Shown: in pieces, positions 28,684 to 30,966 of the stretch
Position numbering within the stretch: position 1 is the stretch's first letter
How the letters are laid out: every line of letters begins with the position of its first letter
Assembly: GCF_016865255.1 (NCBI RefSeq)
Contig: NZ_CP033381.1
Span: forward strand, 4,960,001 to 5,024,000
Direction: 5' to 3'
Origin: Methylomonas sp. LW13
GTDB taxonomy: Bacteria > Pseudomonadota > Gammaproteobacteria > Methylococcales > Methylomonadaceae
DNA: 64,000 nucleotides
Notes under the pieces: model-generated
What the model was told of the DNA's origin: nothing
Seen by the model: only the letters and a program-made list of their open reading frames with translations
The model's database searches: none
Position numbers and translations under genes: made by a program

Positions 28684-29148
28684 TCAGCGCTTTTCTTCCT
28701 GAAAAACCAGCCGGGTTTTTGACAGGTAATCGTGCCAGCATTGGCCGTTTTTATCGAATAGGCACCAGAAAAACCCTAGCCCCAAGCAAGCCCAGGATAA
28801 TAAACCGCCAACGAAGCGGACGCTGGCTTGCTGCCAATTGGGAGAGCGACCATCCAAGGCGCTGACTTTAACTTTCCAGGCGCGCAAACCCAGGGTCTGG
28901 CCGCCGTGGGTCCAAAACCAGCCATAGAAAACAAAGCTGATGCCGAGCAGATAAAGTGGATAAAAAAACTGATCGCTGGCAAATGCTTGGCCGGCGTTAA
29001 AAGGCAGAGCGATGGCCGTGGCGAAAAACCATATCGCCAGCAGTAAGAAAGCATCGTAACCAGCAGCCGCCAGCCGACGCAAAAAACCCGGAGGGGACGG
29101 TAAATCCACGCCGGGTTTTGGGGTGCTTGCTTTAGCGGATTGTCGCAA
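28684..29148 (-). CDS. RDD-family membrane protein
   Basis: 154 residues with four hydrophobic segments and the family's landmarks: LAAAGYDAFLLL near the first helix (the Arg-Asp-Asp motif is degenerate), GQTLGLRAWKVKV in the middle loop and DKNGQCWHDYLSKT at the end. RDD proteins are small inner-membrane proteins, some proposed to be transporters. The frame starts at TTG directly after the preceding gene's stop, with no clear ribosome site; a start inside the frame is possible. Confidence 0.75.
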   Translation of the reverse strand: MRQSAKASTPKPGVDLPSPPGFLRRLAAAGYDAFLLLAIWFFATAIALPFNAGQAFASDQFFYPLYLLGISFVFYGWFWTHGGQTLGLRAWKVKVSALDGRSPNWQQASVRFVGGLLSWACLGLGFFWCLFDKNGQCWHDYLSKTRLVFQEEKR

Positions 29149-29470: not shown

Positions 29471-29500
29471 TTGAGCTTAAATCTGGCGAGGTGTTATGAT
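29471..29500 (+). promoter_or_regulatory. Candidate sigma-70 promoter for pcnB
   Basis: TTGAGC (29471-29476) and TATGAT (29495-29500) with an 18-base spacer lie 75 bases before the AUU start and after the divergent small membrane gene. It is a good match to consensus. Confidence 0.5.
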
Positions 29501-29574
29501 AAGACCGCTAGGACGTTCGCGCCCGAAGCCTCGAAAAAGCTGGCACACGTCATTCTAAATTAAGGGATAAAGTC

Positions 29575-30966
29575 ATTTTTAGTTTCTTCAAAAAAATCTT
29601 TTCACCGGATGAGCAAATTGCCGAACCGGTTAATGAATCGGCGGGGTCGAGTGCCGTGAAGATTTATCCGCGTTCAGAGCATTGCATTTCTCGTGCACAA
29701 ATCAGCGAAAACGCCCTGAAAGTGCTGCAACGCTTGAAAAAGGCCGATTACGAGGCCTATTTGGTGGGCGGCTGCGTCAGGGATTTGCTGCTGGGGCGGG
29801 AGCCTAAGGATTTCGACGTGGCCACTAACGCCAGCCCGGAGCAAATCAAGCAAGTATTTCGTAATTGCCGAATTATTGGCCGGCGCTTTCGACTGGCGCA
29901 TGTGTTTTTCGGCCGCGAAATTATCGAGGTGGCGACGTTTCGCGGTTCCGAATCCGAAGAATCTGACCAGCAAGTCGTTCATGAAGACGGCCGGTTATTG
30001 CGCGACAACGTGTTCGGCACGCTGGAACAGGATGTCTGGCGCCGAGATTTCACCGTCAACGCACTGTATTACAATATCCGCGATTTTTCCGTGGTGGATT
30101 ATACCGGCGGCATGCAGGATCACGCAGCGGCTGTCATGCGTCTCATCGGCGACCCGGAAGTACGCTATAGAGAAGACCCGGTGCGGATGCTGCGCGCCAT
30201 CCGTTTTGCCGTAAAGCTGGGTTTTACGTTGCATCCGGATACCGAAAAGCCGATTTACGCCCAAGCCGATTTATTGAAGAGCATCCCCTCGGCGCGTCTT
30301 TACGATGAAGTCATTAAATTGTTTTTGTCCGGTTACGGTCTGCAATCCTTCGAGATGCTCAGGCATTACGGTTTGTTTGCGATTTTGTTTCCGGAAACCG
30401 ACCGCTGCCTCGCCAGCGAAGATCACGATTTTCCGCGCTTGTTCTTGATCCGAGCCTTGGAAAACTCCGACACCCGCTTCAACGACGGCAAAACACTGAC
30501 GCCTTATTTTTTATTAGCTGCCTTGTTGTGGGAGCCGCTGCAATTGGCCGCGCAAAGACGCATCGCCCACGGCGAAAACGAAACGCTAGCCTATCAGAAC
30601 GCCGCCAACGAAGTGCTGACCAGACAAATCAAGGTCACTGCGCTACCGCGCCACATCACCCAATCGATGCGCGAAGTTTGGTTCTTGCAAAACAAATTCT
30701 CCAGAACGGTTGGGCCAAGGCCTTATCGTTTGCTGGAGCAGCCTAAATTCAGAGCAGCGTACGACTTTTTGCGGCTACGCGCGGAAACCGGCGGCGCCGA
30801 TCCGGAACTGGTCGAATGGTGGACACGTTTTCAGGAAGCCGACGATGCGGAGCGGGAAAGAATGACCGCGCCGCCAAAATCCGGCGGCGGTAAACCCCGT
30901 AACCGGAAAACCGGTCGTTACCGTTCTCGAGGCAAACCCGCCCCCGTCGGCAATGACGCTAGCTAA
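29575..30966 (+). CDS. pcnB: Poly(A) polymerase I, with apparent AUU start codon
   Basis: Adds poly(A) tails to RNA 3' ends, marking them for decay. From ATT at 29575 it is 463 residues: VGGCVRDLLLG then KDFDV with metal-binding Asp79 and Asp81, RRFRLAHV, the EDPVRMLRAIRFA segment, and a basic C-terminal tail. The first ordinary start, GTG at 29656, has no clear ribosome site. Upstream the same frame is open back to a TAG at 29509 with no ATG, GTG or TTG. AAGGG lies eight bases before ATT. The added residues (FSFFKKIFSPDEQ) resemble the start of E. coli PcnB, which is known to begin at AUU. folK overlaps the end by 14 bases. Confidence 0.93.
   Translation: MFSFFKKIFSPDEQIAEPVNESAGSSAVKIYPRSEHCISRAQISENALKVLQRLKKADYEAYLVGGCVRDLLLGREPKDFDVATNASPEQIKQVFRNCRIIGRRFRLAHVFFGREIIEVATFRGSESEESDQQVVHEDGRLLRDNVFGTLEQDVWRRDFTVNALYYNIRDFSVVDYTGGMQDHAAAVMRLIGDPEVRYREDPVRMLRAIRFAVKLGFTLHPDTEKPIYAQADLLKSIPSARLYDEVIKLFLSGYGLQSFEMLRHYGLFAILFPETDRCLASEDHDFPRLFLIRALENSDTRFNDGKTLTPYFLLAALLWEPLQLAAQRRIAHGENETLAYQNAANEVLTRQIKVTALPRHITQSMREVWFLQNKFSRTVGPRPYRLLEQPKFRAAYDFLRLRAETGGADPELVEWWTRFQEADDAERERMTAPPKSGGGKPRNRKTGRYRSRGKPAPVGNDAS

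Follow-up and report, generated by a model that had tools for sequence, protein, structure and literature searches.

The question raised by pcnB of Methylomonas sp. LW13 is where its translation begins. In the window (the whole stretch of 64,000 nucleotides that was analysed), the open frame of the gene spans 29512–30966 on the forward strand. It follows an in-frame TAG (29509–29511) and contains no ATG, GTG or TTG before a GTG at 29656–29658. An ATT (29575–29577) stands 27 codons 5′ of this GTG, with a Shine-Dalgarno (SD) match, AAGGG (29562–29566; duplex −5.2 kcal/mol), 8 bases upstream of it. The ATT was proposed as the start in the initial annotation, whose coordinates for all of these elements held. 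We put at about 0.88 the probability of the following reading: pcnB would be started at the AUU at 29575 behind AAGGG, as judged from sequence comparison, this codon is kept by selection, and IF3 would, by analogy, make the product, poly(A) polymerase I (PAP I), scarce.

The gene, taken from 29575 to 30966, encodes 463 amino acids. The product passed TIGR01942 (510.4 bits, cut-off 305.65) and contained the three PolyA_pol Pfam domains PF01743, PF12627 and PF12626 (head, RNA-binding and arginine-rich C-terminal), in agreement with the gene name first given. The narrower E. coli-type equivalog NF008634 was missed (489.5 bits, cut-off 702); judged by these models, the Methylomonas protein is a PcnB outside the narrower one. 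An Asp pair (D79 and D81) was invariant in 31 PcnB sequences, and we read it as corresponding to the catalytic Asp80/Asp82 of E. coli PAP I, residues named in an excerpt of PMC12140428. The nearest named relatives were Methylomonas fluvii (99%) and M. methanica (98%). The frames 3′ of pcnB, named from their translations only, we take to be folK, panB and panC; the folK frame opens at 30953, before the pcnB frame closes at 30966. Second pcnB-like copies were seen in two genomes, G010 (L194 and C62:5018-6265) and G066 (L215 and C1:4626645-4627933), the second copy in G066 being divided between two adjoining matches.

The next long open reading frame 5′ of pcnB (28684–29148) is on the opposite strand. 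Between the two lies a forward-strand promoter-like site (29471–29500; 9 of 12 matches) made up of TTGAGC (29471–29476), an 18-base spacer and TATGAT (29495–29500) with an extended −10 TG, from which transcription would start near 29507. Pairs of TTGAGC and a −10 element were found by eye at a similar place in several relatives from family f4. A structured 5′ leader or RNA switch was considered and rejected: the 114-nt leader with the start folded no better than shuffled sequences (z 1.02). A repeated TG-N-TATTATAC element was observed 5′ of pcnB in six other gammaproteobacteria (L044, L045, L047, L048, L113 and L262); it probably represents an extended −10 promoter resembling the TG-T-TATGAT of Methylomonas.

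The proposed start column in the Methylomonas family

Conservation was surveyed in 85 loci from 27 genera of the Methylomonas family (f1). The set is a selection from the f1 genomes, consisting of the located g1 loci and G162 together with hand-picked loci for g2–g27. Five loci (L153, L161, L170, L176 and L179) were placed by hand as their motif needed another pattern, and weakly matching genomes (e.g. G127, G146, G185, G207 and G245) were left out. The column of the ATT at 29575 read ATT in 82 loci, ATC in two and GTT in one, so that the alignment check suggested at the outset came out in favour of the AUU; ATT was the exclusive codon in 25 of the 27 genera. ATG, GTG or TTG occurred at this column in none of the 85 loci. 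The start column was 97.6% ATT, compared with 23–64% at eight other Ile columns (Ile in 80% or more of 84 sequences); ATT made up 49% of the Ile codons after the first twelve codons of the f1 genes (832/1699). The column does not behave like an ordinary internal Ile, because the other Ile columns are only 23–64% ATT, nor like an ordinary start codon, because AUG is one mutation away, yet was not seen. The near-invariance of the AUU suggests that a weak start deliberately keeps the enzyme scarce.

Anti-SD duplex energies were calculated before the column and before internal ATT codons. The median was −5.1 kcal/mol at the 85 start columns and −1.7 kcal/mol at 832 internal ATT codons; energies of −4 kcal/mol or better were found at 69% of start columns (the other 31% being weaker) versus 11% of internal ATT. 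The difference gave p = 3e-32 (Mann-Whitney) with relatedness uncorrected, the per-genus count being the safer figure. The AUU was found to be kept across relatives with an SD match at similar spacing, the spacing having been judged by eye. One exception to ATT, L169, has ATC at the column, still preceded by AAGGA, and may use AUC as its start. The four loci of genus g5 (L148, L150, L153 and L161) all have an ATG 14–15 codons 5′ of the column, and in two of them the column reads ATC or GTT instead of ATT. On these four loci the start in g5 may have moved to the upstream ATG; a shift of this kind would agree with the rule, the column being less constrained once an alternative start exists.

The point at which coding begins was located from codon variation in one sequence per f1 genus (n = 27). 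Mismatch at the three codon positions of codons +1 to +7 was 0.16/0.12/0.44, 42% of the codon differences were synonymous, and the residues F, K, K and I were conserved across genera. The corresponding values for codons −10 to −1 were 0.57/0.50/0.63 and 9%, and in-frame stops were present there in several genera. A stop was found no more than 14 codons 5′ of the column in 46 of the 85 loci; in L160 it precedes the ATT by two codons and in L141 by three. The extension motif lay in the open frame of the core at all 85 loci; the stop or frameshift that the initial annotation named as grounds against an AUU start was not found between the two.

The N-terminal extension of 27 codons (29575–29655, IFSFFKKIFSPDEQ...) carries a segment conserved among relatives as I/M-L/F-x-F-F-K-K-I. 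Its similarity to the E. coli N-terminus, noted at first by inspection, was recovered by BLASTP, which aligned residue 1 of the Methylomonas protein to residue 5 of E. coli PcnB (50% identity over 446 columns). AlphaFold modelled the extension as a helix at residues 2–9, at low confidence, followed by a disordered linker, with a mean pLDDT of 51 for the first ten residues. Shuffling the first 11 residues gave a helical moment at least as high in 3% of cases. With these two figures, membrane anchoring by a predicted N-terminal helix was left as an idea.

Canonical codons elsewhere in the frame were counted at each f1 locus. At least one was present 5′ of the column in 34 of the 85 loci (none in 51), and one was present between the column and the core in 40 (absent in 45), so the ATT is not the sole possible start in every genome taken singly. 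In 27 of the 85 the whole stretch between the upstream stop and the core lacked any canonical codon. For the Methylomonas gene, coding conservation was found from the AUU onward and no usable canonical start was found, with the reservation that the GTG at 29656 may be a lesser start.

Rival starts in the pcnB frame

The GTG at 29656–29658 is the first canonical in-frame codon of pcnB and a possible secondary start. It had been described as being without a clear ribosome site, a description that did not survive: GGGGT lies 8 bases 5′ of it, and the duplex of −6.3 kcal/mol is slightly better than that at the ATT. The SD match of this GTG equals or exceeds that of the ATT, and this Methylomonas could also make a shorter second product. 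Two products might then be made here and in a few related species, a scarce long form from the AUU at 29575 and a shorter form from the GTG. The SD matches at both codons would suit such an arrangement, as would the occurrence of GTG at this column in 11 of 31 members of the genus; its absence from 72 of the 85 family members counts against it, and we regard the arrangement as unlikely.

Translation from the GTG alone, with the 27 upstream codons as leader, is far less probable. It would use the first canonical codon and the same GGGGT, but this codon is kept in just 13 of the 85 relatives and is replaced elsewhere by GTT, GTC, GCA, CCT and others, and the codons just after the ATT show conservation at the protein level and aligned with the E. 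coli N-terminus. A start upstream, canonical or near-cognate, with the ATT column as an internal Ile, is the least probable reading and, for the family, already largely refuted on sequence grounds: the canonical codons upstream in 34 loci and the possibly genuine ATG of g5 speak for it, and against it stand the 51 loci with no such codon, the 46 with a stop within 14 codons, the lack of a coding signal 5′ of the column, the ATC and ATA that an internal Ile would show (as other Ile columns do), and the Methylomonas frame itself, in which no canonical codon occurs between the TAG at 29509 and the ATT at 29575.

Candidate starts of pcnB in the order and the class

The column is often other than ATT in other families of the order. 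Among 21 loci of family f4 (the count leaves out L222, which is cut by a contig end) it read ATC in 14, ATA in three, ATT in three and CTC in one, mostly without an SD match. In 18 of these 21 loci (L108, L183, L184, L198, L199, L201–L208, L210, L212, L213, L215 and L217) a CTG preceded the Ile column by two codons, as it did in the single f5 locus (L200); all four f6 loci (L214 and L219–L221) had TTG at that position. SD scores at the f4 CTG were also weak (best −3.0). The simplest reading of these alignments is that pcnB may start two codons upstream in f4–f6, at CUG or UUG, and the pattern suggests that CTG could have taken over as the start in f4, the sister family. The extension was absent from all four f7 loci, where TTG or GTG was found nearby. 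In f2, f3 and f8 (six loci) the column was ATT in five and ATC in one, and the start call was not clear.

The survey was extended to another 147 loci from the Gammaproteobacteria, with most families represented by one; 145 of these loci were used (L312 and L346 were dropped, the motif not being found). At the position 38 codons before the LVGG motif (n = 145), ATT was present in 18, ATC in five, ATA in one, ATG in two, GTG in three, TTG in one and CTG in three. At offsets 36, 37, 39 and 40 ATT was present 2 to 7 times each, and the letter-permuted control codons TAT and TTA were counted 0 and 2 times at offset 38. An SD of −3 or better preceded 15 of the 18 ATT codons of the −38 column; their context was often I-S/N-x-P-x-I-I-P-R, and a stop lay three codons upstream in L121 and L270. 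Second genomes of the same families kept the −38 ATT in five of seven cases, L385 having ATC and L381 neither codon. No canonical codon was present from stop to core in 19 of the 145 loci. That count, together with 18 ATT codons at one other column, makes AUU starts in pcnB look recurrent. At least one canonical codon was present in the other 126 loci, which leaves most of the class with a possible canonical start.

A tree of 191 PcnB rows was built with FastTree, and starts were called heuristically (95 canonical, 52 AUU, 31 ambiguous, 9 other near-cognate and 4 unknown). The Methylomonas family formed a well-supported clade. For the AUU label, carried by 52 rows, 22 changes were required, compared with a shuffled mean of 45.5, and the starred branches forced at least 7; the label is clustered but patchy. 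A single origin of AUU was rejected as a candidate, given the patchy label, 82 weak inner branches of 188 and 31 ambiguous rows. Because of these weak branches and ambiguous rows, we claim neither ancestry shared with E. coli nor convergence. A tentative wider reading, to which we would give somewhat less than even odds, is that pcnB may be a class-wide near-cognate-start gene, in which AUU, AUC, AUA or CUG would have been repeatedly kept or regained at varied N-terminal positions and coupling to IF3 or initiator fidelity would be selected.

Known near-cognate starts and the possible meaning for PAP I

The AUU start of E. coli pcnB was reportedly described by Binns and Masters in 2002. In RefSeq, pcnB of E. 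coli K-12 is annotated from ATT, as it is in three further E. coli genomes (4/4 opened), so truncation by annotation is not general. The E. coli pcnB region was present at at least 95% identity in 5374 of 5426 E. coli genomes. The E. coli and Methylomonas cases share the gene, an AUU followed by UUU, an SD upstream and an alignable N-terminal segment. They differ in that the E. coli protein has four more residues at the N-terminal end of the alignment, and in gene order: E. coli pcnB follows gluQ in the same orientation, whereas in Methylomonas the upstream frame is on the opposite strand and the promoter-like site lies between. An excerpt of PMC9764084 describes E. coli PAP I as kept low by the AUU together with a poor ribosome site, and an excerpt of PMC9410913 gives infC and pcnB as the only two AUU-start genes of E. 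coli and states that IF3 acts against the AUU of its own gene, infC.

infC was used as a control in 30 genomes of the order, of which 27 were read (one gave no match, and two, L372 and L375, went unparsed). The start column was AUC in 26 of the 27 and AUU in one, with a GGAGG-type site before it in most genomes and usually two codons after a stop. Methylomonas infC (L357, G000:C1:3083685-3084191) has an ATC start behind GGAGG, two codons after a TAG. In this control the approach recovered a known near-cognate start, and the codon differs by gene, AUC for infC and AUU for pcnB. Both genes would have a near-cognate start with an SD, expected by analogy to be IF3-sensitive. infC differs in its AUC and its strong GGAGG-type SD in most genomes, against AUU and a weaker SD in pcnB, and feedback of IF3 on its own synthesis is a feature of infC only. 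A further parallel is Streptomyces sigR, whose GTC start is reported from experiments to be repressed by IF3 (PMC5472188). There a non-canonical start is reported to act as a translational brake, through IF3 according to the title of that paper; the gene, codon and phylum are different, and the brake proposed for pcnB is read from sequence.

For Methylomonas, the putative promoter at 29471–29500 would give a leader of about 68 bases, and the 30S subunit would bind at AAGGG. If IF3 behaves as in E. coli, it would disfavour the pairing of AUU with the initiator, little PAP I would be made, and output would rise when IF3 is scarce. AUG would be avoided at this start either for the harm done by excess PAP I or for the benefit of coupling to IF3.

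Literature searches were limited to open-licence papers. They returned no report of AUU in pcnB outside E. coli, nor of the codon being conserved in methanotrophs, of the AUU column found in other families or of the CTG column of f4. The AUU start of pcnB in E. coli is already known; these searches gave no account of its breadth across families. The AUU start put forward in the initial annotation was confirmed as an observation, and the pattern is wider than was thought there. The AUU call supplies N-termini that gene finders limited to ATG, GTG and TTG would shorten or misplace, and the broader pattern of pcnB starts merits a proper survey. AUU is kept by the species sampled from 27 genera, and another AUU column recurs in other families; with this, a curiosity becomes a testable rule concerning the control of PAP I dosage and its link to IF3. 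If the tentative class-wide reading is true, RNA polyadenylation would, in many bacteria beyond E. coli, be coupled to the condition of the translation-initiation apparatus.
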